The notes beneath the pieces were generated by a model. The model did not search any database and had not been told where the DNA came from. It saw nothing but the letters and a program-made list of their open reading frames with translations. The position numbers and the translations under genes are program-made. DNA of 60,742 nt from a virus, in the IMG/VR virus record IMGVR_UViG_3300047157_000094, positions 1 through 60,742 of that record; one strand, 5' to 3'. Positions 5,777 through 57,823 of this stretch are shown here, piece after piece (positions within the stretch are counted from its first letter, which is position 1; every line of letters begins with the position of its first letter).

Positions 5777-5940
5777 TAATCTAAAAAGAAACTTCTAGCT
5801 TCTATTTCCTGTTTTAATTCTTCTTGAAATGTAGTGTTTAATTTTTCTAACACTGCATCTAAATCTCTAACCAAAGACTGTGCCACATCTTCTTCATACT
5901 CTGAACTTGCTCTAGTTAATGTTTGTACTATCTTTGCCAT
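5776..5940 (-). CDS. Small acidic helical protein (54 aa)
   Basis: The ORF starts at 5940, overlapping the stop of the upstream gene, and ends by TAATG overlap with the next gene at 5776. The product begins MAKIVQTLTRASSEYEED and is almost entirely predicted helix, with heptad-like Leu/Val spacing. That suggests a small coiled-coil assembly protein. The tight overlaps at both ends are the main evidence that it is real. Confidence 0.6.
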   Translation of the reverse strand: MAKIVQTLTRASSEYEEDVAQSLVRDLDAVLEKLNTTFQEELKQEIEARSFFLD

Positions 5941-6770
5941 TATATTGTGTAATAATTTTGCATTCTTGATTCAATTGCTTCTCTAATATCAGTAGGTTGA
6001 TTCTGTAAGTATCTTGAAGTAAATGGATCGCTTGCTACTTGTATATTTTCATCCACAACATTATTAACATCATCAAACATATTATTGTTATAAAGAGTTG
6101 CAATACCTCTATTGTCATCTCTACCACCAATAGGATTACCATAAGCATCTATATTTCCAGATCCTCTTTCTTTCATATAATTTTTGTAAGCTGATTCTAG
6201 TTCTTCATTAGTCATTTCAGAAACAGTTCCATAATTTAAACCTTTAATTTTACCCGCTCTTACTACTTCATTCATAAAATAAGGTCTATTTTTTGAAGCA
6301 TTAAAATCAGAAAATTGTTGTAGTGGTGAATTTACACCTTTATTAAATAAATTTAAAAACATACCTGAAAGACCAAAATTAGGAATGTTTACTTTAGGTC
6401 TATTATATAGAAAAGAACTATATGTTCCAGGTTGATATGGACCTATTCCTGGTCCTGTAACTTGATCTTTAGCAAGACCACCTGCAACACCTACTTCAAA
6501 AGCTCTTCTTGCATCTTTAATATCTTGACCAGTCATACTTGAGTAATCATTACCCTGACCATCTGGTCCACTACCACCGCCACCTTGATTACCTCCGCCA
6601 TAATCAGCACCGCTTGTATTTTTAGCACTAGTATTTGCAGCTCTACTGCTAGTTCCAACAGTTGCCATATCAGAACCACGATAACCTGGTCTTGAACCAT
6701 CTAAAGTTTTAGCAACTCTTTGGCCTGTTGCGTACATCTGTCTAGCTTGTTGTAATCTTGTAATTGACAT
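5940..6770 (-). CDS. Hypothetical virion-region protein (276 aa)
   Basis: Complete 276-aa ORF starting MSITRLQQARQMYATGQRVA, an N-terminus I associate with small internal virion proteins of marine phages. It has a Gly/Asp-rich linker (GGGNQGGGGSGPDGQGND) at about residues 58-75, then a polar domain with many Asn and Tyr. The start overlaps the stop of the hub gene, so both are probably translated from one message. Family not recognised. Confidence 0.65.
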   Translation of the reverse strand: MSITRLQQARQMYATGQRVAKTLDGSRPGYRGSDMATVGTSSRAANTSAKNTSGADYGGGNQGGGGSGPDGQGNDYSSMTGQDIKDARRAFEVGVAGGLAKDQVTGPGIGPYQPGTYSSFLYNRPKVNIPNFGLSGMFLNLFNKGVNSPLQQFSDFNASKNRPYFMNEVVRAGKIKGLNYGTVSEMTNEELESAYKNYMKERGSGNIDAYGNPIGGRDDNRGIATLYNNNMFDDVNNVVDENIQVASDPFTSRYLQNQPTDIREAIESRMQNYYTI

Positions 6771-8989
6771 TATCTTCTTCCTCCAGTTTGTATATCTAAC
6801 CTAAAAGTCCCTAATTTCCAACTAGTATCTACTGCAGTATTGGATATTGTAAGAGCGATAGCTCTTGCTCTTGCACGTGTGTCTACTTTTTCAGTTCCAG
6901 ATGTTACAGTAAATGGACCTAATGATGAACTAGCTGCTGTATTATTAGGATAGTTTCTTAAATCTAATTGTATAATAGTGTTCCTTGCTTGAGATATAAA
7001 ATCAGGTATAATTCTACTTACTCTCATAATATTTTCACCATCACCTCTAAGTCTCCTAAATTAGTTGCAGCTCCTCTAATAACTTTTTGTGTAATATCAT
7101 AATCACCAGAAGTAATATTAGCTGGAATAGCTGTTGTTACTCCAAGTCTTACTTGATTAACTCCTGTTTCATGTTCATAGTAATATGAAATTCCTTCTGT
7201 GTTTCCTGTTACATCAAAAGATGTATCTGTTCCTGCATCGTATTGAGTTGCATGTGGTAATCCAAATACAGCAGAATCAATCCAAGTTGTTCTAATAAAT
7301 AAAGAACTTGCATTACAAACCATATAGGTCGTTTAGCAGTTGAGTCTAGATAACTATAAGTAACTGACTGTGTATTTACATTTGAGTTAGCTTCAGGATA
7401 AAACCATGTAACTTCTCCAAACAAGTTATTAATACCTGCATAAACCATTTGATTAGATGTTGTATTTAAATTATCATAAACATAGTCTTCAACTAAACAG
7501 TCCATAGATTCTAGTTTACCTGTGTATCTAAAGAAACCATTATCAGACATCCAGTACGCAGCACCATCAACTTCAACAGCTGCATTCTTACCTATTAATC
7601 CACAGTTAGTTCCGACTTGTTCAAAGGCAAAAGTAAAAGGAGTTCCAACAAAACGCATGGTAAATAAAGCTGTGTCTGTCCAAACATAAAGTGCATTTCT
7701 ACCAAGTTTAGCACCCATGATCCGTGATCCGGCGGCCAGTCTTTGTGTACCAGCACTATTAGTTCAGCTGTAGGTGTATAATCATTTATATTTTCTTGAG
7801 ATGAGAATCTTATAAACATATCATCTTGTGTTGTTTTATCACCAATAGTTGTTTCTGTTCCAAAAAATACTAAGTGACGATCAGGAGTAGATACTAACAT
7901 ATCTCTAGACGCTGTTGGTGCACCAGATATAATAGTTGCTCTTGTTGTTACAGCATTAGTTAAATCTGAATTCCATTCAAAACATTCACCATTAAATATT
8001 AAAGCAATGGCTGTGCTACCTAAATTATCTATAGACCACATACCGGGTTCTGCAACTTTATCCGTGGTCGATGCTGCTTGACCCCAGGCTGAGTAAGCAC
8101 TAAAGTTAGTAACTGTTGCACCATTACTGTGAGAAGCGTTTGTTGTGCCTCTAACATTTCTAGTAATTCCAGTAAAACTTGTAGCTGTAATTCCTGTGTA
8201 AGATATTTCTTCGTTATCTACTTGTATAAAATTTGTTCCTGAACTTGGAAAACCTGTGGTACTTGCTACATTAATCGTGGTCCCTGAACCACCAGTTCCA
8301 GCAGAGTCGGCATTTAATGCTCCATTCAATGTAGTAGTTTGTGGATTTGTAACAGTACCACCCCACTGAGATATACCATAACCAAAGACTCCAACCTGTT
8401 CAGCTGGTCCTACGTGATAATATTGAAAATAAGTTATGCCTCCAGAAGTAGTTGCTCCTGCTCCTCCTTCATTTCCAGGCATTGTAATAGTTAATGTAGT
8501 TCCTGTTGGTGTTGATGTTACCATAAATTTTTTATCACAAAAATCTGCAGCACCAAAATTTGAACCTGTAATAGCACTAAAAGTAGTTGTGTCACCAAAT
8601 AAAATTATATCACCTGGTTCAAAATTATGTGCTGATGGAAAAGTAAGAGTTACGGTAGGTGATCCATTACTTGTGCTAAAAGCATTTGTAAGAGCTGTGC
8701 CTGATGGATTAGTTAAAGGATGTATATCATAGTATACTCCTCCTGTGTAAACGTATAAAATTCTATTAGTTCCTATTAAAGAATATTTAATACCTGTTTT
8801 ATTAACCATGTGATGCAAACCTCTAGCCGCACCAGTTAATTTACTATCACCTAATTGAGACCAACCACCTATTTTTTCAGGTGTACCATATCTAAAACGT
8901 ACATTTTCACCTCCTGTCCATTGTGATTCAGCTCCGGTGGATGTAACTTGTTTATTAAATCCTGGTAAAAAACCTAGTTTTTGTAGCAT
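6770..8989 (-). CDS. Hub / DNA-stabilisation protein, P22 gp10-like candidate (three frameshifts)
   Basis: Four consecutive frames make one protein of about 740 aa: 8989 to about 7730, then to about 7325, then to about 7060, then to 6770. The N-terminus (FLPGFNKQVTSTGAESQWTG, then GARGLHHMV-type and YSLIGTNRILYVYTGG blades) and the C-terminus (PFTVTSGTEKVDTRARARAI, TFRLDIQTGGRR) match the blade-like tail-hub or packaged-DNA-stabilisation proteins of podoviruses (P22 gp10 type). Inside is a short module, VASTTGFPSSGTNFIQVDNE then ISYTGI...TRNVRGTT..SHSNGA, that also occurs in the protein at 21145-21942. The broken frames are attributed to sequencing indels because homologous segments continue across each break. 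Confidence 0.75.
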
Positions 8990-9049: not shown

Positions 9050-9595
9050 TTAAGAAATATACTCTAAATATTGGCCTGCAGCATAGTGTAAATTAAAGAC
9101 TATAGCATGTTTTGGTTTGTCTTCAAGATTAGGTTTAGATTCATGTCTTAATAAACTGTCCCAAAATAAAATTCTACCTGGTTCAGGTTTAACATGAAGT
9201 TTAAGTTCAGGAAAAAATAATTTTTGATTGCTACTAGTTAAATAAAGTATACCTGAAACATTAGCCTGTCCATGCCTGTGATTTGCAGTCCAATCTCCGC
9301 GATCAAGTCTAATGCCGTAAGCGTCTGATAACGTATACTCTGGATTTAATAAACCTGTAAATGCAGACAAATAATCTTTACTGGCTGTCATAATAGCTTT
9401 AAAACTAGGATTTTCTAAAAAAATATTTTCTGTTCTTTTTCCTTTAACATTGCTCTTGTAATTCCATTCATTATTATTCTTTAACACATCATCTATTATT
9501 TCTATAAAATCTGTTCCGTCAAAATTATCAAAGTCAAAACCATAGAGGCAGGTTGATCTCTTTATTTCTTTTTCAATTCTTAATGCAAATTTCAT
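9050..9595 (-). CDS. 2OG-Fe(II) oxygenase-like protein, cassette member 9
   Basis: A 181-aa protein of the double-stranded beta-helix dioxygenase type. H106-x-H108 (NHRHGQANVSGILYLTSSNQ), the PGRILFWDSLLRHESKP strand with H151, and K162-HAIVFNL form the core. The ILYL-strand and FW.S...H spacing fit the phage 2OG-FeII_Oxy_5 family, although the usual Arg that binds 2-oxoglutarate is not obvious (Lys at that place). The ATG overlaps the end of the preceding oxygenase gene. It is the last gene of the cassette before the hub. The substrate is unknown. Confidence 0.7.
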   Translation of the reverse strand: MKFALRIEKEIKRSTCLYGFDFDNFDGTDFIEIIDDVLKNNNEWNYKSNVKGKRTENIFLENPSFKAIMTASKDYLSAFTGLLNPEYTLSDAYGIRLDRGDWTANHRHGQANVSGILYLTSSNQKLFFPELKLHVKPEPGRILFWDSLLRHESKPNLEDKPKHAIVFNLHYAAGQYLEYIS

Positions 9596-10131
9596 ACTTT
9601 ATAATCTTCCTCAAGTGTATCAAAATCTAGGTTAAATGATATAATAATTTTTTCTATATCTTCAGTTATTTTAGGTGATCTGTGCACCACAAAACTAGGA
9701 AAAATAATTATGTCCCCTTCTTTAGCATCTATCTCTAATATTTTTTGTTTGTTGACTAACTGTGTTTTCGTAGCACCTTTTGGAAATTGTAAATAATATA
9801 CTCCTGTATAATTGTTACTATGTATATGCCAGTTATGCACTCCGTTTTTTTTATATTTTTGAAACCATAGGTTTCTAATATGCACAGTGTTTAACTTTAA
9901 ATTTTTAATGCATTTTAAAAAATGTTTTTCTAGTAAAGGTTTTATAAACCTCACCCATTCTCTATCCATATCTGTGCTTTTTTGCCAATCTAAATAATCA
10001 ATTTTATCTTTAGGATGACAATCAAAATCATTTGCAGCTTTGTTTATAAAATTAATTAATTGATCTTGAATTAAATTATGGTGTTTAAACCTGTCTTGAA
10101 ATCCATAGGACTCTAATATTATTTTTTTCAT
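9592..10131 (-). CDS. 2OG-Fe(II) oxygenase-like protein, cassette member 8
   Basis: The start is placed at the ATG overlapping the upstream stop (TAATG); an in-frame upstream ATG at 10143 is less likely. Counting from 10143, H106-x-H108 (HNWHIHSNNYTGVYYLQF) and H154 (DIIIFPSFVVHRSPK) give the Fe-binding triad, and FNLDF closes the fold. The usual 2OG-binding Arg appears as Lys (K165). This is the HxH subtype of the family, like members 1 and 9. The N-terminal 90 residues are helical and unlike the other members. Confidence 0.75.
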   Translation of the reverse strand: MKKIILESYGFQDRFKHHNLIQDQLINFINKAANDFDCHPKDKIDYLDWQKSTDMDREWVRFIKPLLEKHFLKCIKNLKLNTVHIRNLWFQKYKKNGVHNWHIHSNNYTGVYYLQFPKGATKTQLVNKQKILEIDAKEGDIIIFPSFVVHRSPKITEDIEKIIISFNLDFDTLEEDYKV

Positions 10132-10706
10132 TAATAACACCAAGATACAAATGAGTATCTTGTTCCTTTTTTTATAGGTTTAATTAAATGCGGGTACATA
10201 AAAAGTGATGGAAATATAATTAAGTCCCCAGCTTTAAGTTTTATTTTATAGTCATTAAACATAATCAAATCTCCTCCTGTATAATCATCATTTAAAACTC
10301 CTATAATACTTAGTATGGGGATACCTCTAATTTCTCCTGTAAACAAACTATGTATATGGTCACAATGCTTAGACATTATTTGGTTTTTTTTATATCTATT
10401 AAATCTAATTTTACTAAAACCGTTCCAACCATTAAAAATTTCTCCCCCTATTTTATCAATAAGAATATATTTTTCTAAAGCTTTCCAAGTTAAATGATGT
10501 AAATCTTTAAGATGTGTTAAACTATTTCCATTACAAACATCTAATTCTTTATTACCATTTTTAGATTGTTTCTTAAATTCTTTTGAATAAGACCACTGAT
10601 GTTGTTCCCAATTTTTTTCTTTTGTTAACTCTTTAATAGTAACATTTAAAATATTTTTAGGAATCCATTTATTTAAATGAAGTATATAACTTTTTAAATT
10701 TTTCAT
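10131..10706 (-). CDS. Prolyl-4-hydroxylase-like 2OG-Fe(II) oxygenase, cassette member 7
   Basis: A complete 191-aa protein with the canonical triad H114-x-D116 (SKHCDHIHS), H173 (YPHLIKPIKKGTRYSFVSW) and R183 for 2-oxoglutarate. The GGDLIMF strand and AGDLIIFPS strand are typical of P4H-like phage enzymes. All predicted catalytic residues are present. It is coupled to the genes on both sides. The substrate could be a protein, glycan or small metabolite. Confidence 0.82.
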   Translation of the reverse strand: MKNLKSYILHLNKWIPKNILNVTIKELTKEKNWEQHQWSYSKEFKKQSKNGNKELDVCNGNSLTHLKDLHHLTWKALEKYILIDKIGGEIFNGWNGFSKIRFNRYKKNQIMSKHCDHIHSLFTGEIRGIPILSIIGVLNDDYTGGDLIMFNDYKIKLKAGDLIIFPSLFMYPHLIKPIKKGTRYSFVSWCY

Positions 10707-11278
10707 ATTATTTTAAAATTAGCTGACACAGATATTCTTTCTCCGTTACTTGTAAAAGGACATACGTAATGTTTTAAGTTATAAGGAAATATAAAAAAAT
10801 CTCCTTTGTTAGGTAAAAATTTTTGTTGATCAATGTTGTAGTCTCTATATTCTCCATACGAAAAAATTATAGATCCAGGACCTGAAGATTTTCCTATGTA
10901 CTTTTTGTTTTCTTTTTTTAATGCAGAAGGTATTTGTAAATATAGAACACTAGATAGATCACAGTTTATATGATGGTGTGGAGGATTAGATTCATTTTTT
11001 TTCATATAATTTACCCATGCTGAATTACATTGTAATTTTAATAATTGCCTGTTGTACCAGAAATGAAACCTTTTTTGAAAAGGTTGGAAATAAGGTTCAA
11101 CAATTTTTGCATATTTTTTTTCATCAATAACGTGTTCACTTTTAATAACTCCAGCTAAAATATCTCTAGCGTCTTTATTTTTTTTACTACAAAGTTTTTC
11201 TACTTTAGATAAGTCTTGTGTGTTTAGTTGTGTCTTATACAACAAAGGACCAAACATGTGTTGTTCATAAGTTATCAT
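10703..11278 (-). CDS. 2OG-Fe(II) oxygenase-like protein, cassette member 6
   Basis: A 191-aa protein with HHH at 101-103 (NPPHHHINCDLSSVLYLQIP), H170 (FFIFPYNLKHYVCPF) and R181 (GERISVSANF). This matches the 2OG-FeII_Oxy_5 layout: HPH-like box, short YL.. strand, FP...H, R.S...N. The start overlaps the stop of the frameshifted member 5. The protein is clearly diverged from its neighbours, so the cassette did not arise by a recent tandem duplication. Confidence 0.8.
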   Translation of the reverse strand: MITYEQHMFGPLLYKTQLNTQDLSKVEKLCSKKNKDARDILAGVIKSEHVIDEKKYAKIVEPYFQPFQKRFHFWYNRQLLKLQCNSAWVNYMKKNESNPPHHHINCDLSSVLYLQIPSALKKENKKYIGKSSGPGSIIFSYGEYRDYNIDQQKFLPNKGDFFIFPYNLKHYVCPFTSNGERISVSANFKII

Positions 11279-11764
11279 AAATAGTTAAAGTTTATTACAA
11301 TCCTTCTGTCTGTATCTGTTGCAGTTACTGCAGCATGGTATGTTTTTGTATCTATAATTAATAGTTTATTTTCTTCTACCGCAATTTTAGTTTTATCTTT
11401 TAATAAAGTATAGCCGTTATTTTTATTTATGTAAAATATAGCTGTATTGCAAAAAAAACTCTTTGTCGACATGAAACTCTGATTGTGTATGTTTTTTAGT
11501 TTTAAATAATAAATTAGCTCTTATTTCATTTATCATATTAACTTTAAGTTTTTTAATTATAGGTGTTATGATTGTGTCGTAATAAATAGAATTTTTTTGA
11601 TGGTCATGATAAAAGTTATGTCCCATAAAAAAACTATCATTTTTACCTGAAGTTTGAGACTCATTAAAAAACCAAGGAAAAGTATTAGATAATATTATTT
11701 CTTTAATTTTGTTAAAGGTGTCTTGATCAAGAAAATTTTTTATTTGTTTATATTTATATTCCAT
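11275..11764 (-). CDS. 2OG-Fe(II) oxygenase-like protein, cassette member 5 (frameshifted)
   Basis: Two frames make one gene. The first, from 11764, carries H98-x-D100 (SEFHVDKEFF). A single indel near 11455 moves to the frame that contains the other half: LLIIDTKTYHAAVTATDTDR with the distal His, then RRIVINFNYL with the Arg. The break falls in a run of A/T. The combined length (about 163 aa) and the D/H/R spacing fit small T4-like cyanophage-type dioxygenases. Confidence 0.72.
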
Positions 11765-12078
11765 TCTAACGCATCAATAATTTCATCTAGATTAATTTCT
11801 TTTAACCTGTGTGTGATAATAAAACTATGCAACTCTGCTGCTTCAACAATAACCCATTTATCTTTTTGTTCGAAAACAATTTTATCTGCTTTAGATTTAT
11901 TGGTTAGTGGTTTTACATCTCGACCTTCGTCATCCATCTGATACGGCCTAAGATCGTATTTTAATTTTTCATTTAATCTGTTTTTTAATATACCAACTAC
12001 ATCCCAAAGTTCTTTTTCTTTTTGTTTTTTAGTAGCCTGTTTAACGTTAGTTAAATGTTTTTTTATAAAATCTTTCAT
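11740..12078 (-). CDS. Unknown cassette protein between oxygenases (112 aa)
   Basis: Complete 112-aa ORF overlapping both neighbours. It has a basic N-terminal helix (KKHLTNVKQATKKQKEKELW) and an acidic C-terminal half with IVEAAELHSFIITHRLKEIN. No Fe-binding triad is visible, so it is not an oxygenase. It is the only cassette member other than the carbamoyltransferase that lacks an oxygenase fold signature, which makes it a candidate adaptor or accessory protein. Function unknown. Confidence 0.65.
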   Translation of the reverse strand: MKDFIKKHLTNVKQATKKQKEKELWDVVGILKNRLNEKLKYDLRPYQMDDEGRDVKPLTNKSKADKIVFEQKDKWVIVEAAELHSFIITHRLKEINLDEIIDALEWNININK

Positions 12079-12662
12079 ACTGTAAAGTCAAAATTTATAA
12101 CAGTTCTTTTACTAAAATCAATAGGGCAATTTCCTGAGTGATATATACCGCCATCAAAATATATAGCTCTTCCTTGTTTAGGAGATATTCTTTTATTTAC
12201 CACAGCATCAGCATCTAATAATATTTCATCAGATATTTTATTTTTAAAAAAAACACTGTCGCCATCAGAATCATCTACATAGTATAACAAAGTTTTGTAA
12301 GGCAAATGATCTTTAACATCTATGTGAGGTACGTTGTATTTTTCTTTAGAATGATTTTTAATTCTAAACGTTCTTCTTATTCTAACTCTTATCATGTCTT
12401 TTATTTTTACTTTTTCTTTAATAACAAAAAAATTCAATATGGTTGAAAACAAATTATAGTAATCAGAGTTTATTCCTTTTTCATTATATAGGGTATGAAT
12501 ATGTGCAAATGTTTTAGTTATGTTTGGATTAATAAATTTTCTATTTTCTTTCTGATGAATAATATTATCTGTATAAAACCATGCAATTTCTTCACTGTCT
12601 AATAATTCAATATATTTATTTTGTATATTTAAAGGTACAAAATTATCTAAAATTTTTATCAT
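12075..12662 (-). CDS. 2OG-Fe(II) oxygenase-like protein, cassette member 4
   Basis: A 195-aa protein with H113-x-D115 (NVPHIDVKDHLPYKTLLYYV), H175 (YFDGGIYHSGNCP) and R186 (KRTVINFDF). GRAIYFDGGIYHS is a familiar strand in cyanophage dioxygenases. All metal and cosubstrate residues are conserved. The start ATG overlaps the upstream stop (TGATTAAA-type coupling near 12659-12662). The substrate is unknown. Confidence 0.8.
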   Translation of the reverse strand: MIKILDNFVPLNIQNKYIELLDSEEIAWFYTDNIIHQKENRKFINPNITKTFAHIHTLYNEKGINSDYYNLFSTILNFFVIKEKVKIKDMIRVRIRRTFRIKNHSKEKYNVPHIDVKDHLPYKTLLYYVDDSDGDSVFFKNKISDEILLDADAVVNKRISPKQGRAIYFDGGIYHSGNCPIDFSKRTVINFDFTV

Positions 12663-13258
12663 GTTGTTTCTCTTTTAAATGGATATCCCAAATGAGGTCT
12701 ATCGTCATAAAGATTTTTATCCCAACCTTTTGTTGCTTTATTGTTGTAGTGTAAAAATACTTGACCACACATATAACCTTCAAAAGGTTTTCTCCAATGA
12801 GGTAGAATAGTTCCAGAATATAATAATGCATCTCCTGCATTTAATTCAACTTTAATTTCTTTTCCTTTAGTATTTTCTAGATATATGGGCCACATGTCAC
12901 CACCTAAATTTAAAGTGCCGGAGATTTCACAACTAAATCTATCTTTGTGTTTTTTTAAAATGTCTCCATTTTTATATAACCTAGTGTATGTGTAGGTAGG
13001 AGATAACTTAAGCTTTGTTTTTTTTTCTAGCGTTTCATTAGTAGCTGCTAATAATGTTTCCATAGCAATATCTGAATAACAAGAATAGCTTCCAGGTGCT
13101 TGCTCGTCACCATCAAAACCCAACAGTTTATTATTTATGTTTAATCTTTTTAAAGAATAAAAAGTTTGTTTTTTCATTCTTAAATAATTAAATAAAAAAT
13201 TAGCTAGTTCTTTACTAATTATATTTCTACATATTTGATATTTATTTTTATTAAACAT
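12659..13258 (-). CDS. 2OG-Fe(II) oxygenase-like protein, cassette member 3
   Basis: A 199-aa protein with H104-x-D106 (LKKHKDRFSCEISGTLNLGG) and distal H154 (GTILPHWRKPFEG). The AGDALLYSGTILPHWR strand is characteristic of a phage dioxygenase subgroup whose C-terminus ends in a short basic tail. The usual Arg ten residues after the distal His is not evident. It lies between two other oxygenase genes and overlaps both. Confidence 0.76.
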   Translation of the reverse strand: MFNKNKYQICRNIISKELANFLFNYLRMKKQTFYSLKRLNINNKLLGFDGDEQAPGSYSCYSDIAMETLLAATNETLEKKTKLKLSPTYTYTRLYKNGDILKKHKDRFSCEISGTLNLGGDMWPIYLENTKGKEIKVELNAGDALLYSGTILPHWRKPFEGYMCGQVFLHYNNKATKGWDKNLYDDRPHLGYPFKRETT

Positions 13259-13871
13259 AAGGTTTTCCTACTGTCCACATTACTAAACTATACCTTGTTC
13301 CTTTTGTTATAGGTGTAACACGATGCCATACAAATCCAGGAAAAAAAATAATAGAACCTTGTCCTAAATTACATTGATTCATATTTGATTTATTTTTTTC
13401 CAAAGGTGTTTCAACGTTGTTATTGTAACCTATTTCTAAATCACCCCCACTATATTCTTTAGGGTCATTTAATAAAACACTACAAGATATTTTTCTTATT
13501 TTTCCTTCATATTGTGAAAATTTATGATTTTTAAAAGGTTGATAAAACGAATCCATATGCCAATTATAATATTGTCCTTTTTCATATTTAGTAAATTGAA
13601 TGTCTTCATTCCAGCTAACTTCAAAATTCCAACCCGCATTTTTATTTGCCATATGAAGATAGGGATTTAATTTTTTATAAACTTCTTTATCAAACACCCA
13701 TTCTATAGAAGAATTTCTACGTTTTTTATTTGCAATAGCTTTTTGTTTTACGCCATCCCCACCAATTTTACCTTTTTTAGTAGCCCTAGGTTTGTATGTT
13801 TTTATTATATTATCACACCATGTTTTATCTAAAACATTTTTAAAAAACCATACGTTATGTTTTAAATGCAT
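13251..13871 (-). CDS. PKHD/P4H-type 2OG-Fe(II) hydroxylase, cassette member 2
   Basis: A complete 206-aa enzyme with H105-x-D107 (YYNWHMDSFYQPF), H183 (FVWHRVTPITKGTRYSLVMW) and R193. GGDLEIG and GSIIFFPGFVWHRV are textbook P4H/PiuC-type strands. It is among the clearest oxygenases in the window. The ATG overlaps the stop of the carbamoyltransferase gene, which supports co-translation and possibly a shared substrate. Confidence 0.87.
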   Translation of the reverse strand: MHLKHNVWFFKNVLDKTWCDNIIKTYKPRATKKGKIGGDGVKQKAIANKKRRNSSIEWVFDKEVYKKLNPYLHMANKNAGWNFEVSWNEDIQFTKYEKGQYYNWHMDSFYQPFKNHKFSQYEGKIRKISCSVLLNDPKEYSGGDLEIGYNNNVETPLEKNKSNMNQCNLGQGSIIFFPGFVWHRVTPITKGTRYSLVMWTVGKPYV

Positions 13872-15532
13872 TATTGATAAATCCTTTCTATGTCTGCAAA
13901 ATATATATAATCTATATCTGATTCATTAAAAGTTTCTATGGCATCTTTAGGAGATTCTACTAATGGTTCCCCTGCTAAATTAAAAGAAGTGTTCATTAAT
14001 ATAGGCATCCCTGTTTTTTTATTAAATAATTTTAATAATTTATATAATACCGGGTTTTGTTTTTCATTAACTGTTTGTATTCTACACGTGTTATCCACAT
14101 GTATCACTGCAGGGATTTTATCTTTAACACCTTCTTTAGCTTCAACAGCATATAACATATACGGAGATTCTTTTAATCCGGCCATGTCAAACCATTTATG
14201 TGCTTCCTCTTCTAAAATAGATGCACCAAAGGGTCTAAACCATTCTCTATTTTTAACTTTGTTCATTATGTCTTTACCATTTTTAATCCTAGGATCTAGT
14301 AACAAAGATCTATTTCCTAAAGCCCTAGGTCCTGCTTCGGCTTTACCTTGATATAAACCAACAATTTTTTGATTAATTAAATGTTCAACTACAGTCTCTA
14401 TTTTATCATTACCTTTTTCTATATCGTAAACAGGTTCAGGTCCTAAATAAATATTATCAAAATTATTTCGTGTTCCACAATATTTACCAAAAGTTATTGC
14501 AGCTCCAATACTATTGCCTTCATCACCACATAAAGGATCAATATAAAGATTAATGTCTTTAGGCAAAAATTTTTTTAACCTATAGTTAAAAACAACATTT
14601 AATGCACAACCACCGGTTATAATAATATTTTTTGCGTTGTTAGCATATCTATTTAAAACTTTAATCATTTGATACTCAAATTGTTTTTGACTTTCATAAG
14701 CTATGTCATAATGAATTTGTTTATATCCTAATTTTTTGTGATAATAAAGTTCTGGGTATTTTTCAACATTAACATTAAAGTTAATATCTTTGTTATATTT
14801 ATCTTTATAGACAAATAAATCATCTTTCAATAAAATCTCTTTTATCTTTTTATTAGGTTTTCCATAAGCTTGTAAACCCATAAGTTTTCCTTCATCGTTT
14901 GTTTTAAAACCCAAATGATTTGTCATTCTACTATAAAAAGCTCCGGAAACAGGTCTATGATCTACATCAAAATTTTCAAATCCTTTTAATGTAATTGCAT
15001 CCATAACAAAGTCAAAACCGTAAATTTCATTAGCTCTTACTTTTGCTTTATGTCCTTCCCTAGTAGTTTGTAATCTTTTATATAAACAATCGAACCCGTG
15101 TTCGATACTTGCAAAGTACACAGAAAAAACTTCATGTCCTTGTTTACCATTATCCAATATATAATTAGAACCTCGACCATCAGCTACTAATATTACTGCT
15201 TCATCCATATCAGTAGAATACATGGCTTTTACTGCATGATTTAGATGATGTGATTTATAATAATGAACTGCATTTTCATAAGGAGAATCAATTAAACCCA
15301 TCTTGTACATATAACCATAAACAAGATGAGCATCGTGAGTGTTATATCCTGTAACAACTACTTTATCTATTTTAATATTTAATTTTTTAATTTCATTTAA
15401 AGTGTGTATGGGAAAAAAACTATCGTTTTTAATTTTAGATAGTCTTTCTTCTTGATTATAATAAACTAATTTAAAGTCACAAAATAAAGCAACTGATGAG
15501 TTATGATTTTTTTGTAATCCTAATATGTTCAT
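13871..15532 (-). CDS. NodU/CmcH-family O-carbamoyltransferase
   Basis: A complete 553-aa protein. The N-terminal Kae1-like domain has HHLNHA (95-100), DGRG (118-121), EGKLMGL (214-220), TGGCALNV (306-313) and DEGNSIGAA (337-345). The C-terminal YrdC-fold domain begins near residue 385 and has AGPRALGNRSL (400-410), FRPFGASIL and the closing MNTSFNLAGEPLVESP segment. These are the metal-, carbamoyl-adenylate- and substrate-site motifs of the NodU/NovN/CmcH family, which moves a carbamoyl group from carbamoyl phosphate to a hydroxyl of a sugar or small molecule using ATP. It sits between oxygenases 1 and 2, so a hydroxylase could make the hydroxyl that this enzyme carbamoylates; that coupling is inference. 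Confidence 0.92.
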   Translation of the reverse strand: MNILGLQKNHNSSVALFCDFKLVYYNQEERLSKIKNDSFFPIHTLNEIKKLNIKIDKVVVTGYNTHDAHLVYGYMYKMGLIDSPYENAVHYYKSHHLNHAVKAMYSTDMDEAVILVADGRGSNYILDNGKQGHEVFSVYFASIEHGFDCLYKRLQTTREGHKAKVRANEIYGFDFVMDAITLKGFENFDVDHRPVSGAFYSRMTNHLGFKTNDEGKLMGLQAYGKPNKKIKEILLKDDLFVYKDKYNKDINFNVNVEKYPELYYHKKLGYKQIHYDIAYESQKQFEYQMIKVLNRYANNAKNIIITGGCALNVVFNYRLKKFLPKDINLYIDPLCGDEGNSIGAAITFGKYCGTRNNFDNIYLGPEPVYDIEKGNDKIETVVEHLINQKIVGLYQGKAEAGPRALGNRSLLLDPRIKNGKDIMNKVKNREWFRPFGASILEEEAHKWFDMAGLKESPYMLYAVEAKEGVKDKIPAVIHVDNTCRIQTVNEKQNPVLYKLLKLFNKKTGMPILMNTSFNLAGEPLVESPKDAIETFNESDIDYIYFADIERIYQ

Positions 15533-16134
15533 AGTTTTAATTCTGTTAATGTTTGTCTTGAACCAAAGTCTCCTTTTGCAAAAACGTTAAAAGCTAGACT
15601 TATTCTTTTACCATAAGTTTCTTCAACATTACCAACTTCATGCATTAAACAAGAAGGAAACAAAATAATTTTATTTGTAGCTGCAGGTATCCACCAAGTA
15701 TCTGAATTATATTTATTAAATTGTTTAGGGTATACTTTAATTTGATCGTAAACATTTTTTTTAAATCTAATATAATCAAACTTTGGATTTGCATTTATAT
15801 AATAAACGCCAGATATAATAGAGTTAGGATGAGAGTGTGGATAGTGTACTTGTTTTTCATTCGTGTAGTTTAACCAAGATTGTGTAATATAAAATTTTAA
15901 ATTACTTGAAGGTTTTAATATTTGATCAACGTATTCTTGAATAAAAGAATTAATTTGTTTTTTTAAATTTTTAAAAGGTTTTTCGTCAAGAATGTAAGTA
16001 TTTTTACTTTGTAAAACTTTAAACTCCCAATCTGGTTTTGTTTCATATTTAAAAAAATTTTGTAAAGTAGTTTTAGATAAAGGCTCTAAATATTTTTCGC
16101 ATATGGGGGTCGGAAATAGATCTATTATATTCAT
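15529..16134 (-). CDS. 2OG-Fe(II) oxygenase-like protein, cassette member 1
   Basis: A 201-aa protein opening with NIIDLFPTPI, the typical start of the 2OG-FeII_Oxy_5 family. H100-x-H102 (VHYPHSHPNSIISGVYYI), FPS then H165 (LMHEVGN) and R177 (GKRISLAFNVF) are in place. It is the first gene of the cassette, after a 50-bp A/T-rich gap from the fibre gene block, so a promoter for the cassette could lie just upstream; no clear -35/-10 pair was found there. The substrate is unknown. Confidence 0.85.
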   Translation of the reverse strand: MNIIDLFPTPICEKYLEPLSKTTLQNFFKYETKPDWEFKVLQSKNTYILDEKPFKNLKKQINSFIQEYVDQILKPSSNLKFYITQSWLNYTNEKQVHYPHSHPNSIISGVYYINANPKFDYIRFKKNVYDQIKVYPKQFNKYNSDTWWIPAATNKIILFPSCLMHEVGNVEETYGKRISLAFNVFAKGDFGSRQTLTELKL

Positions 16135-16184: not shown

Positions 16185-16646
16185 CTAACTAATTTCCCAA
16201 GTATTGGTGTTTGTGTCCCAGTGATAAGAAGTCATTGGGTCTTCTAAAACATTCTCGCTTTGCCATCTGTAATTTTCTTCACTCCAATAGCACCATCTTA
16301 ATATTACAGTATCACTTACCACTAGACTTTCATCTGTTGGTTTTGTTACTGGAGCTTGCCAATCATCATTAGAATCTAGTATCCATGAAGCATATGGTTG
16401 TGGTCTTATAAATTTATCTTTAACAGCATCATAAGTATCTCCTATTCCTGCATTTTGTTTTCTAAATGCATTTGTAGAAGAACATTGTTTCCAAACTCCA
16501 CCTTTAAAAAGATTTGTGCAATAAGTTTCTCCATCAACATGCATGTCATTTTCACCTAAAGGACCATCCGATGTTGGTACGTCATTACCAATTTTAACAG
16601 TTTGAGTAACTACGTTGTTTTCGTCTAATTTTGCAAATGATGCCAT
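16185..16646 (-). CDS. Fibre-associated protein of the cyanophage-like MASFAKL family (153 aa)
   Basis: Complete 153-aa ORF. It begins MASFAKLDENNVVTQTVKIG and contains AFRKQNAGIGDTYDAVKDKF and YASWILD, the signature blocks of a small protein family common beside tail-fibre genes in T4-like cyanophages and other marine phages. The C-terminus is Trp-rich (RWCYWSEENYRW). It probably takes part in the distal fibre or its receptor-binding tip. Overlaps the stop of the glycine-rich gene. Confidence 0.8.
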   Translation of the reverse strand: MASFAKLDENNVVTQTVKIGNDVPTSDGPLGENDMHVDGETYCTNLFKGGVWKQCSSTNAFRKQNAGIGDTYDAVKDKFIRPQPYASWILDSNDDWQAPVTKPTDESLVVSDTVILRWCYWSEENYRWQSENVLEDPMTSYHWDTNTNTWEIS

Positions 16647-17458
16647 TACTCTACTGTAAGTGTCCCCGACACTGTAAAGGTAGCTACTTTTTGTCCTCCT
16701 GGAGCAGTTGCTACAGTATTTGTTCCTGGTGCAACAGTTAAAGTTGCGGCCGCTGGAGCGCTAACAATTACAACACCTGAACCGCCAGTACCATTTGGAG
16801 GAGAGCTATCAAAACCCATTCCGCCGCCTCCGCCGCCTTTTCCGTTGGTTCCATTAGATCCTGAAGCTGTTCTACTACCTCCGCTTCCACCGCCGTCTTG
16901 TGCTGGTCCTGGTCCTGGACTTGGAATGTAACCTCCGCCACCTCCACCGCCAGCGTATTCTACTGAAGATCCTGATACAGAGCTATCTCTTCCAACTCCA
17001 CCGGCTCCTCCGGCTGGAGTAGATGTTCCTCCACTGCCGCCAGCTCCTCCGCCGCCAGAATTAATTTGTGTTCCAGCAGGGTTTCCTTGTGGTGGACTAA
17101 CTGGGGGATTGTTACCTGTTTTAGAAGGATATTGAACTGAACCACTTCCACCATTAGCTTCGGGGTTACCATAACCGCCTCCACCGCCACCGGTTGAAGT
17201 AATTGTACTAAAAACTGAATTTCCTCCTCTTGGACAAGAGTCATTTCCTGGAACAGGTCCTGAACCTGTACCGACTGTAATTGTGTGATCTCCTCCCTCT
17301 AATTCTATAACAGCAGAATCTTCAGAAGTTCTAAAACCTCCGGCTCCGCCGCCACCTCCGGCTCCGCCACCTCCGCCTCCGGCAACGACTAAATAATTAA
17401 CTTCGTAGACAACTGAACCGCCGCCTGATCCAAATCCTAAAACTTGATATCCAAACAT
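16646..17458 (-). CDS. Glycine-rich tail-fibre tip/adhesin-like protein (270 aa)
   Basis: Complete 270-aa ORF, about one third glycine. It begins with VNYLVVAGGGGGGAGGGGGA and has many further GGGGG runs separated by Ser/Thr/Pro segments, ending in VVIVSAPAAATLTVAPGTN and a short beta C-terminus. VVAGGGGGG repeats are typical of phage receptor-binding tips and glycine-rich adhesins, where poly-Gly-II helices pack side by side. It follows the main fibre gene with a good ribosome site (AAGGAGAATAAAAT before the ATG). Confidence 0.82.
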   Translation of the reverse strand: MFGYQVLGFGSGGGSVVYEVNYLVVAGGGGGGAGGGGGAGGFRTSEDSAVIELEGGDHTITVGTGSGPVPGNDSCPRGGNSVFSTITSTGGGGGGYGNPEANGGSGSVQYPSKTGNNPPVSPPQGNPAGTQINSGGGGAGGSGGTSTPAGGAGGVGRDSSVSGSSVEYAGGGGGGGYIPSPGPGPAQDGGGSGGSRTASGSNGTNGKGGGGGGMGFDSSPPNGTGGSGVVIVSAPAAATLTVAPGTNTVATAPGGQKVATFTVSGTLTVE

Positions 17459-43597: not shown

Positions 43598-43776
43598 AGT
43601 TTTCTTTTTAATTCCTCTAAATACTCACGGTTCTCTTGATCACGTAATATCTTTTCATGTTGTATGTTTTGTTTACGTTTTAATATTTTAACATGTTCTC
43701 TCCAGGCCCATGCATTAAGTTGACCTGCATACTTCATTATAAAATGTAATCCTTCGTATATAAATTTATCAAACAT
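43594..43776 (-). CDS. Small basic helical protein (60 aa)
   Basis: Complete ORF overlapping both neighbours. MFDKFIYEGLHFIMKYAGQL is amphipathic, followed by a Lys/Arg/Glu-rich helix (REHVKILKRKQNIQHEKILR). Possibly membrane-attached through the N-terminus. Unknown function. Confidence 0.55.
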   Translation of the reverse strand: MFDKFIYEGLHFIMKYAGQLNAWAWREHVKILKRKQNIQHEKILRDQENREYLEELKRKL

Positions 43777-44213
43777 TATTCTAAACTCATCGCTTGTTTA
43801 TATTCTTCTAACGAAACTACTTTACCATTCATCACATGTCCTGCGTAATGTTCCATGACTTGATTAATCTTTGGTAACTTTGTATGCGCCCAAGGCCAAA
43901 TCAAACAACAAACATAGTATGCATCTCTAAATGTAGCACGCCATCGGTATTGCATAAGATATTTAGTACCATCTACGCGTTTACCTTTTCTAGGTTTTTT
44001 ATTTAATGTACCAACACCTAAAACTTCATGGACCCACCTTAACACAGATTGATCTGTCATTGTAATTTCCATAGATAATCTTAAACTATTAGACCACCTA
44101 TACCCAGGTTTACCTCGATGTTTCTTTTTCTTTTCAGGTGCTCGTTTAAAATGAATACTACCTTCACCATCAAACAATCCTGCAATGTATGCTTTGTCTG
44201 TATCAGGAATCAT
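43776..44213 (-). CDS. Single-motif LAGLIDADG homing endonuclease
   Basis: A 145-aa protein with one LAGLIDADG-type motif, AYIAGLFDGEGSIHFKR, near the N-terminus, followed by the beta-sheet DNA-recognition region (RWSNSLRLSMEITMTDQSVL, RWRATFRDAYYVCCLIWPWA). One motif means it would act as a homodimer. It is free-standing; no intron or intein is apparent next to it, so it is a mobile gene placed between phage genes. Confidence 0.8.
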   Translation of the reverse strand: MIPDTDKAYIAGLFDGEGSIHFKRAPEKKKKHRGKPGYRWSNSLRLSMEITMTDQSVLRWVHEVLGVGTLNKKPRKGKRVDGTKYLMQYRWRATFRDAYYVCCLIWPWAHTKLPKINQVMEHYAGHVMNGKVVSLEEYKQAMSLE

Positions 44214-50650: not shown

Positions 50651-52137
50651 AGTAAATAACCTTTCTCATATTTTTTTGGTTCAATTATATGTAAATTTTC
50701 TTTTGTTCTTGTTGCACCTACGTAAAATAATCTATTCTCATCATCTGGATTTCTTTCATAACCTCGCATAGTATTTTCTGTAAGATCAGTTAGTAATACA
50801 ACATTAGTTGCTTCTCCACCTTTGGCTGCATGTATAGTTGACAATTCTATCCTAGGTTTTTCGTTTAGTTTTTCGCCATTCTTTCTCATCTTTCTTAAAT
50901 AATTTACTTTTGTTTGCCCTGCATTATCAAATGCTTCATACCATTCTGTTTTAATTTGCAAACCATAATCATTTGTAAGTTGGTCCATGCCATAAAAAGA
51001 TCCTTTGGCCATACCTTTTATTTTTTTAGAATCCCAATTTTTAGGTCCCATAAATTTAATTATATTTTCTATTTCTTTATATGAAACTAATTGTCCTTGT
51101 CGTAAATGTTCCCATGATGTAGCTGCGTTATGTAATTCTTTTTCACTACTTCGTTTATATCTATTTTCATAATACAATCCTTGTCTATACAAAGACTCTT
51201 CTATATCTGTTAACATGTGTCTTGTTCGACTTAATATTAACCAATCACCTTTTGTCATGTCTATGCTATCTATATCAAAATGCCTGTGTAAATTTCCTTG
51301 ACTAACTCTTGGTTGCCACGTTTTATCTATTCTATTTCTAATTTTATTTATTATACCCATTGCTAATCCGTGTACTTTAGCAGGTATTCTGTAAGACTGT
51401 GTTAGTGGTAGGTATTGTCCTTCTAACGCTATAAAAGAATCTACGTCTGCACCAGCCCATCTAAATATTGCTTGGTCGTCATCACCTGCAATAAAAGAAT
51501 CTTTTGTTTTATTCCAAATAGATCGTGTCATATCCCATTGCATTAATGATAGATCTTGTGCTTCATCTATGAATACTACATCAAACTTTGGTGATTTGTC
51601 TGACTTTGTAAATTCTAAAATCATGTCATTAAAATCTATTAAATTATATTCTTTTTTATATCTTCCTAACTCGTTGTGTATAATTCTAAGTTGATCTCTT
51701 TCCAGGTCCTGCGTGTGTTCTTGTAAATCAAACTGTTGTTCTGGTGTAATGTTACGTAGTTGTGCTAGCTGGATAATTCGTAGATACTCACTGTCTGATG
51801 TAAAAATACCACCTTGGTCTTCTTGGTAGTCAGCGTATGTTACAGGAAAACCTAACTTCTTACCTAGGTCTTTGTAATGTCTCGGTTGCATAACTTGATC
51901 TTTTTTTAATCCTAACTTTCTGAATGCTAGTGAGTGTAGTGTTCTAAAATACGGTAGATCATCTTCTGTTAAATTAAATTTTTTAATTGCTCTGTCTCGT
52001 GCTTCGTGTGCAGCTTTCTGTGTAAATGCAAAGTAACCTATCTTGTCAGGATCTGTTTGTTTTAAATAATCATCTACTTTATTTAACAGCGTGGTTGTTT
52101 TGCCTGTTCCTGGTGGTCCTAATACTATTGTTCTCAT
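50647..52137 (-). CDS. UvrD/Rep-like SF1 helicase
   Basis: Complete 496-aa protein. VLGPPGTGKTTT (motif I, residues 5-16), YFAFTQKAAHEARD (Ia), VVFIDEAQDLSL (II), AGDDDQAIFRWAGAD (III), LTQSYRIP (IV), STIHAAKGGEATNV (V) and RLFYVGATRTKENL (VI) are all present. Superfamily 1A helicases unwind 3'-5'. It is the likely fork or recombination helicase of the phage. Overlaps the HNH gene and DUF3310. Confidence 0.92.
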   Translation of the reverse strand: MRTIVLGPPGTGKTTTLLNKVDDYLKQTDPDKIGYFAFTQKAAHEARDRAIKKFNLTEDDLPYFRTLHSLAFRKLGLKKDQVMQPRHYKDLGKKLGFPVTYADYQEDQGGIFTSDSEYLRIIQLAQLRNITPEQQFDLQEHTQDLERDQLRIIHNELGRYKKEYNLIDFNDMILEFTKSDKSPKFDVVFIDEAQDLSLMQWDMTRSIWNKTKDSFIAGDDDQAIFRWAGADVDSFIALEGQYLPLTQSYRIPAKVHGLAMGIINKIRNRIDKTWQPRVSQGNLHRHFDIDSIDMTKGDWLILSRTRHMLTDIEESLYRQGLYYENRYKRSSEKELHNAATSWEHLRQGQLVSYKEIENIIKFMGPKNWDSKKIKGMAKGSFYGMDQLTNDYGLQIKTEWYEAFDNAGQTKVNYLRKMRKNGEKLNEKPRIELSTIHAAKGGEATNVVLLTDLTENTMRGYERNPDDENRLFYVGATRTKENLHIIEPKKYEKGYLL

Positions 52138-52679
52138 TCAAATTGTCCTTTTAAAGTTTGCAATACTAATTGTGTGTTAGCTGTTTTAGATCCTTTATTT
52201 ACATTTTTTAAATTTTGTTGTTGAGTAAGCCATTTTAAATTACTTAATCTATAATTAAAAACATCATCATCTATGTGTCCAACAACCCACTCTTTACCAT
52301 TATATAAGTCTGGGTTTTTTATAAAAGCTAATCCAAGTATTCTATGCATACGAGCTAAAATAGTTTTACCACAAGTAGTTTTTAATCCTAGTTTAGGATA
52401 TAGATCTGTTTTTGTTGGAACAGGATATATAATTTTTCCTGTATCATTATTTTTGACATAAGGAAATATGTCTTCTCTTTCTTTATAAAAAGTATTAACT
52501 CCACCTGTTTTATAAACAGTGTACTTACCTTTTGGTAAAGCACTATATTGTAAATCATTATAACTATATTTTTTTCTTTGTGGGTCGTACGGTAAAGAAT
52601 GTAAATCTACATAATCTACATCTTTAATTAAATTTTTTTCAGTAAACTCTTCAAATAAATGTAATTGTTCTGATATCAT
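52134..52679 (-). CDS. HNH homing endonuclease-like protein (181 aa)
   Basis: Complete 181-aa ORF. TILARMHRILGLAFIKNPD then WVVGHIDDDVFNYRLSNLKW is the HNH_3-type core (H...H-D....N...NL.W), common in phage free-standing homing endonucleases. The N-terminal part is Tyr-rich and may bind DNA. It sits between primase and helicase genes without an intron. Confidence 0.78.
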   Translation of the reverse strand: MISEQLHLFEEFTEKNLIKDVDYVDLHSLPYDPQRKKYSYNDLQYSALPKGKYTVYKTGGVNTFYKEREDIFPYVKNNDTGKIIYPVPTKTDLYPKLGLKTTCGKTILARMHRILGLAFIKNPDLYNGKEWVVGHIDDDVFNYRLSNLKWLTQQQNLKNVNKGSKTANTQLVLQTLKGQFE

Positions 52680-57337: not shown

Positions 57338-57823
57338 TTAATTTACGACTTTACCGCCGGACCACTTCATTTCTGGAAGTCCTTCGGTGTATTTTTTGCC
57401 GTCAAAAGTTAATACTTGTTTTCTGTTTGAATCTGATTCGTGATAAGATATGTGGACCCATCCCCCTGCCGGATCGTCTTTGTCGTAGTACTCCATGATC
57501 AATTGATCGAAGTCCACGTTATTTTGTAGCCAGTAAGCTGTCTGAATATTTGGCACGCCAAATATTTCTAGGTCGACGGCCTGGCCCTTCGCATGCTGCG
57601 AAGTCTTTTTGCTGCCGATCGCCTCACATAATGCTTCACTACGATATCCGCTAGTAATCGTTACTGGTTTAGAAAAATGTGCACGTAGTGGTTCAAGAAC
57701 TTCATAACATAGATCTCCTAAACTTTTAATTTCACCTGCTCCTGGTGTATTATCAATGCCCCTACGTTGAGCGGTCATCGATTTGGTCATCTCTTTAAGA
57801 GTAAAATGTTTGCTAAGTTGCAT
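57338..57823 (-). CDS. M15-type peptidase, likely endolysin
   Basis: Complete 161-aa protein. ITSGYRSEALCEAIGSKKTS then H77, D84 and H124 (SQHAKGQAVDLEIFG, GGWVHISYHES) are the Peptidase_M15_3 zinc ligands. Such enzymes cut peptide cross-links of peptidoglycan. It follows directly after the holin candidate. With the other genes it forms the end of the late block across the genome junction. No signal peptide is seen. Confidence 0.87.
   Translation of the reverse strand: MQLSKHFTLKEMTKSMTAQRRGIDNTPGAGEIKSLGDLCYEVLEPLRAHFSKPVTITSGYRSEALCEAIGSKKTSQHAKGQAVDLEIFGVPNIQTAYWLQNNVDFDQLIMEYYDKDDPAGGWVHISYHESDSNRKQVLTFDGKKYTEGLPEMKWSGGKVVN

Follow-up and report, generated by a model that had tools for sequence, protein, structure and literature searches.

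Few auxiliary genes of marine phages are as numerous as those for 2-oxoglutarate (2OG)-Fe(II) oxygenases, enzymes without a known substrate there. For cyanophages, Sullivan et al. 2010 (PMC3037559) listed carbamoyltransferases as well as multiple 2OG genes, and nine scattered 2OG copies are found in cyanophage S-SZBM1 (PMC9146016). The 2OG genes of HTVC023P-type phages were assigned by Wittmers et al. 2022 to eight non-orthologous families, whose members often lie close together and adjoin a 'ferrochelatase' gene that was related there to heme (PMC9599517); the word 'carbamoyl' is absent from the text of that paper. The carbamoyltransferases of S-SZBM1 and of S-MS29 have been published as pyrimidine genes. 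Here we analyze an operon of the IMG/VR virus record IMGVR_UViG_3300047157_000094 (60,742 bases, classed linear, 34% G+C and possibly not a whole genome; the full record is referred to as the window) in which nine oxygenase-type genes, A to I, are joined by a carbamoyltransferase gene, CT, and by one further small gene, X. A preliminary description of this DNA had remarked that many marine phages carry one or two such enzymes, which understates the eight families and the nine copies cited above. Oxygenase clusters in marine phages are already known and the present one is near the largest form; what is new, as far as the literature searched extends, is that nine such genes are contiguous with a CT, that this kind of arrangement recurs in different phage groups and that C, a 'ferrochelatase' by database name, is reclassified.

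The reading that we prefer, and to which we assign about an even chance, is that of a modular tail-decoration locus in an HTVC023P-type pelagiphage. In its large terminase the record shares 72% identity with Pelagibacter phage HTVC027P, 70% with 023Pt_psg01 and 61% with HTVC023P, and the gene order K, J, B, C, T, W/Y is common to the record, HTVC023P and 023Pt_psg01, which together indicate a pelagiphage of the HTVC023P/HTVC027P type; the terminase identities also make SAR11 very probably the host. The operon runs on the minus strand from 16134 down to 9050 and consists of eleven gapless genes in the order A, CT, B, C, D, X, E, F, G, H, I. Overlaps had been noted for most of the genes and are in fact found at all ten junctions (1-25 nt). 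On one side the operon is flanked by a glycine-rich tail protein (K) and a small tail-region protein (J) and on the other by a virion protein (T), so that the location proposed at the outset, between receptor-binding and hub genes, is borne out as one between a Gly-rich tail protein and virion/hub genes.

A search of relatives for the same ordered cassette, suggested in the preliminary description, locates it in ∼25 other IMG/VR contigs (L008-L031) with 50-100% identity. Median ratios of nonsynonymous to synonymous substitution (dN/dS) against orthologues range from 0.11 to 0.28 for the cassette genes, CT giving 0.13, values comparable with or below the 0.22 to 0.33 of the tail genes J, K, L and T, and all of the cassette genes score as being under purifying selection. 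Because of the ordered conservation in L008-L031 and these dN/dS values we do not regard the cassette as a product of chance. Scans of IMG/VR with C and X recover the interval K/J - [B..C] - X - T with an array in more than 100 further contigs, many of them short and related, so that the counts are not independent. The number of oxygenases per array varies from 0 to 10, usually with a B-like gene first and a C-like gene last, followed by X and then T, and the largest arrays found, with ten oxygenases, occur both with and without CT. The present array stands at the upper end of the size range of a hypervariable tail-region locus that is made up of a Gly-rich tail protein, J, the array, X and T. 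The core CT-B-C order is old, and the other oxygenases come and go.

Nine 2OG-Fe(II)-type oxygenases had been proposed, and eight of these are intact minus-strand open reading frames (ORFs) at the positions given for them, with the ninth, at 11275, frame-broken here and intact in the relative L009. The Pfam cut-off of the 2OG-Fe(II) families (PF13759 or PF13640) is exceeded by A, B, F, G, H and I, while PHROG families 81, 61, 274 or 2954 are matched strongly by all nine; iterated profiles seeded with the nine genes unite A, B, D, E, F, G, H and I as one superfamily, and C remains separate, its superfamily placement coming from predicted structure. A double-stranded beta-helix is a predicted fold for C only, with A, B and D-I placed by sequence profiles. 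An HxD..H..R arrangement is found in B (13251-13871; PF13640 1.5e-14, phrog_61 9e-39), a core member in which H105, D107, H183 and R193 are invariant across orthologues and which is P4H/PiuC-like, its PDB relatives being PiuC and prolyl 4-hydroxylases (P4H); in D (12075-12662; phrog_274 4e-31, PF13640 sub-threshold), with invariant H113, D115, H175 and R186; and in G (10131-10706; PF13640 1e-10, phrog_61 4e-26), which is missing from several relatives. Gene E (11275-11764; phrog_274 2e-21 for its front part) retains H98, D100, H143 and R154 in intact relatives. An HxH..H..R arrangement is found in A (15529-16134; PF13759 3e-18, phrog_81 1e-38), where H100, H102, H165 and R177 are invariant across orthologues and the PDB relatives are 3bvc and 2rg4, and, likewise with invariant residues, in F (10703-11278; PF13759 7e-16, phrog_81 3e-31). 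Both H (9592-10131; PF13759 1e-12, phrog_81 1e-31) and I (9050-9595; PF13759 2e-9, phrog_81 2e-15) have the form HxH..H..K.

A signature of H-x-D or H-x-H with a distal His had been claimed for every member, and the metal triad is indeed invariant among orthologues in 9/9, as HxD..H in B, C, D, E and G and as HxH..H in A, F, H and I. The strict carboxylate form (His-x-Asp/Glu..His) is present in 5/9 only, and the HxH form is seen also in two solved uncharacterized proteins (PDB 3bvc and 2rg4). The basic residue expected to hold 2-oxoglutarate is R/K in 8/9, with C having no R/K at the usual place. The members are as strongly divergent as had been described, with B-G the best pair at 33% identity and D-E at 23%; they are old paralogues, and recent tandem duplication is rejected by the maximum identity of 33%. 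The label 'DNA endonuclease V' attached to phrog_274 sits here on oxygenase-type proteins and should be corrected.

A second label that requires correction is the 'ferrochelatase' of phrog_2954, matched by C (12659-13258, minus strand; 4e-51), a core member with an invariant HxD..H. The AlphaFold2 (AF2) model of C has a mean predicted local distance difference test (pLDDT) score of 89, and its best Foldseek matches are prolyl 4-hydroxylases of the 2OG superfamily (4iw3/4j25); among viral models its matches include both phage prolyl hydroxylases and an S-SM1 protein that bears the name ferrochelatase. No Pfam match to ferrochelatase is obtained up to an E value of 1 and the fold matches are 2OG hydroxylases. 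Contrary to its database name, C is thus predicted to have a prolyl-hydroxylase-like fold and to be an oxygenase-type protein. The family includes further genes annotated as 'ferrochelatase', namely HTVC023P gp67, HTVC008M gp068 and P-RSM4 PRSM4_049 (PHROG 2954/3531).

In this record E consists of two overlapping ORFs, 11423-11764 and 11275-11472, with the break lying within their overlap. It is intact in L009 (a 99% identical relative; ORF 5867-6361) and in many other contigs. Gene T (7024-8989, minus strand; phrog_3287 3e-29), the virion structural protein that closes the locus, is similarly split over several overlapping frames here and is a single 743-codon ORF in L009. Since E and T are both broken here and both intact in L009, an indel error of assembly or sequencing is the likeliest explanation for E, ahead of a pseudogene.

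The identification of CT (13871-15532, minus strand, 553 aa) as a NodU-type enzyme stands, as it holds both the Carbam_trans_N and the Carbam_trans_C domains of NodU/CmcH/TobZ-type O-carbamoyltransferases (PF16861 3e-62, PF02543 2e-24) and matches 7xb6 (1e-55), GdmN and TobZ in the PDB. By family membership it would act on a hydroxyl. The Pfam N and C domain match is common to TobZ, GdmN, NovN, 7xb6 and CT, and TobZ, GdmN and NovN act on antibiotics. The preliminary description envisaged a multi-step pathway in which hydroxylation feeds carbamoylation, and this does not agree with the distribution of the genes: arrays hold 0-10 oxygenases, CT occurs in a minority of them, most related arrays being without it, and many CTs have no 2OG neighbors, including most of the distant relatives in other marine phages (∼33-36% identical), which are without an oxygenase within 10 kb. 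A fixed nine-step pathway is rejected, with oxygenase members and CT varying independently. At one CT locus (L037) a nearby gene has tail-type domains. The array-linked CTs do not form one clade (quick tree, approximately unbiased (AU) test p 0.0145), and therefore CT became linked to the arrays, or unlinked from them, on more than one occasion; CTs of separate branches lie in or beside oxygenase arrays at L067/L069, L143/L145, L050 and L239/L242/L243. The dereplicated median array size is 6.5 with CT vs 5 without (one-sided p 0.03, three artefactual zeros removed), a tie between CT and bigger arrays that is only suggestive because the contigs are related and the p value ignores phylogeny.

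Comparable clusters are found outside this lineage. In the T4-like cyanophages P-RSM4, S-MS29 and S-CAM8 a CT precedes B-like, C-like and J-like genes and another four oxygenases, beside tail-fiber genes, and in P-RSM4, the only one of these in which the Gly-rich neighbor was tested, a Gly-rich domain protein like K lies on the other side of CT. These clusters differ from the record in having six 2OG genes rather than nine, in having no X and in belonging to large cyanobacterial myoviruses, and their CT is on the opposite strand and falls in a separate clade from that of the record. The S-MS29 gene beside the oxygenases matches the O-carbamoyltransferase of the record, and what has been read as an aspartate carbamoyltransferase appears to be an O-carbamoyltransferase of this kind. 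In the pelagimyophage HTVC008M four oxygenases, C and J lie beside baseplate genes, with no CT in that stretch. The phages of Wittmers et al. are of the same lineage as the record and likewise have a C-type gene beside 2OGs; there, however, the 2OGs are described as close by without being adjacent, whereas the nine of the record are contiguous with CT (PMC9599517). The recurring company of CT, oxygenases, C and J across phage groups provides what we judge to be the best evidence for a shared function.

In the mechanism that we propose, the oxygenases and CT would be made together with the tail proteins. Each oxygenase would hydroxylate or otherwise oxidize its own site, located on the tail tip or fiber or on a glycan of a surface contacted by the tail. 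At that target CT would carbamoylate a hydroxyl, whether oxygenase-made or not. Independent action on separate sites is inferred because the oxygenases are gained and lost independently, and an oxygenase-made hydroxyl would not be required since CT and the oxygenases each occur without the other. The set of enzymes would in turn alter how the receptor is contacted or how well recognition by the host or a competitor is resisted, which would explain the hypervariability beside host-recognition genes; in pelagimyophages the tail-fiber region is a hypervariable host-recognition cluster (PMC7029224). Tail decoration is favored by the position of the array within the tail module, by its association with J and with Gly-rich proteins in different phages, by a gain and loss of members such as typifies host-recognition regions, and by the resemblance of B and C to protein hydroxylases, the solved folds nearest to them including PHD2 and a P4H acting on EF-Tu. 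A bolder version, in which at least three marine phage groups share a combinatorial system of up to ten site-specific hydroxylases and an O-carbamoyltransferase that mark the tail tip with hydroxyl and carbamoyl groups in a variable pattern and so alter host recognition, strikes us as improbable; if true, host recognition would be altered by enzyme repertoire as well as by fiber sequence. A contiguous array that lies with tail genes and is repeatedly accompanied by a CT reduces the question to which component of the virion or of the host surface receives hydroxyl and carbamoyl groups.

Several points weigh against tail decoration. Genes of hypervariable regions can adjoin tail genes through tolerated insertion and nothing else. 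No collagen-like (Gly-X-Y) or Pro-rich repeats are present in the tail proteins checked, so that a collagen-like tail substrate for a prolyl hydroxylase is rejected, and a literature search on phage tail-protein hydroxylation gave nothing useful. In HTVC027P the oxygenase trio is on the opposite strand to its tail neighbors, and therefore co-transcription is not universal. Finally, the usual 2OG-anchoring basic residue is absent from C, and the HxH members may not use 2OG.

The enzymes might instead tailor a glycan, lipid or metabolite made by the host, for example as a barrier to superinfection, with tail proximity reflecting a hypervariable island, a possibility that we consider unlikely while giving it more weight than any other rival. 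Carbamoyltransferases modify antibiotics and Nod factors, and the CT relatives of known function (TobZ, GdmN and NovN) use small molecules and sugars. A related cyanophage CT (S-SCSM2R) is grouped with sugar epimerases and glycosyltransferases, and glycosyltransferases of lipopolysaccharide (LPS) type occur in pelagimyophage host-recognition islands (PMC7029224). The window, however, contains no group 1 glycosyltransferase and no scaffold-building enzyme was recognized, and protein is the substrate of many of the closest counterparts of B and C. Slightly less likely still is a pile-up at a tolerant site of independent single-purpose enzymes, be they host-protein hydroxylases, managers of 2OG or iron, or auxiliary metabolic genes (AMGs), that share no target, with CT as a passenger. 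Accordion-like gain and loss, arrays that often lack CT and CT loci without arrays are all as expected for such enzymes, and roles in drawing down 2OG and in the use of iron have been put forward in print (PMC3037559, PMC12753301), but random accretion would hardly yield a conserved B..C bracket, a J link in three phage groups, repeated CT-array linkage and a strict order.

A nucleoside had also been named as a possible target, with oxygenases hydroxylating a base and CT capping it in the manner of the 5-hydroxymethylcytosine carbamoyltransferase. That viral enzyme (MetaGPA, PMC8670742), compared here at the level of domains, has the same Pfam carbamoyltransferase domains as CT, comes from a metavirome and makes 5-carbamoyloxymethylcytosine, and genes for DNA hypermodification are known from some HTVC023P-type clades (PMC9599517). 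The validated enzyme, however, works with a thymidylate-synthase homologue, and its associations are with thymidylate-synthase-type genes and with DNA modification, neither of which was found in the record; PF00303 is absent from it, though it may be a fragment. There is likewise no C5 methylase and no Tet/JBP match, though the Tet/JBP control was silent in every genome, and the cassette is in the tail module, away from replication genes. With none of these partner genes found DNA modification was rejected, and we regard it as very improbable.

Gene X (11740-12078, minus strand) encodes a 112-aa protein that is not an oxygenase and has no PHROG or Pfam match of note; its structure prediction is poor (AF2 pLDDT 60) and a match to EcoRV in the PDB (E 0.05) is taken as chance. 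Its family (103-117 aa, with conserved W-D, R-P, E-L-H and L-x-W-N motifs) is widespread in marine phages and is represented at 353 IMG/VR loci or more, where it normally has T on one side and the array or J on the other, with no match among 50,697 deposited phage records. At L127 X precedes T though no oxygenase is seen, and therefore X is a tail-locus gene and its candidacy as a pathway enzyme is rejected; the unknown protein that had been noted as lying among the oxygenases is present, but it belongs to the tail locus and not to a pathway. It was not found in the cyanophage clusters, where one of the two small genes is J. Gene J itself (16185-16646, minus strand; phrog_7759) has homologues adjoining oxygenase clusters in P-RSM4, S-MS29, S-CAM8 and HTVC008M, that is, in three phage groups, and is a candidate substrate or tail-tip protein; examples beside oxygenase clusters are L239, L242, L243 and L245. 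Next to it lies K (16646-17458, minus strand; PF21722 1e-15, phrog_2295), whose PF21722 domain also adjoins CT in P-RSM4. Elsewhere in the window there are LAGLIDADG and HNH homing-endonuclease-like ORFs (43776-44213 and 52134-52679) and a Peptidase M15 family gene, a probable endolysin, at 57338-57823.

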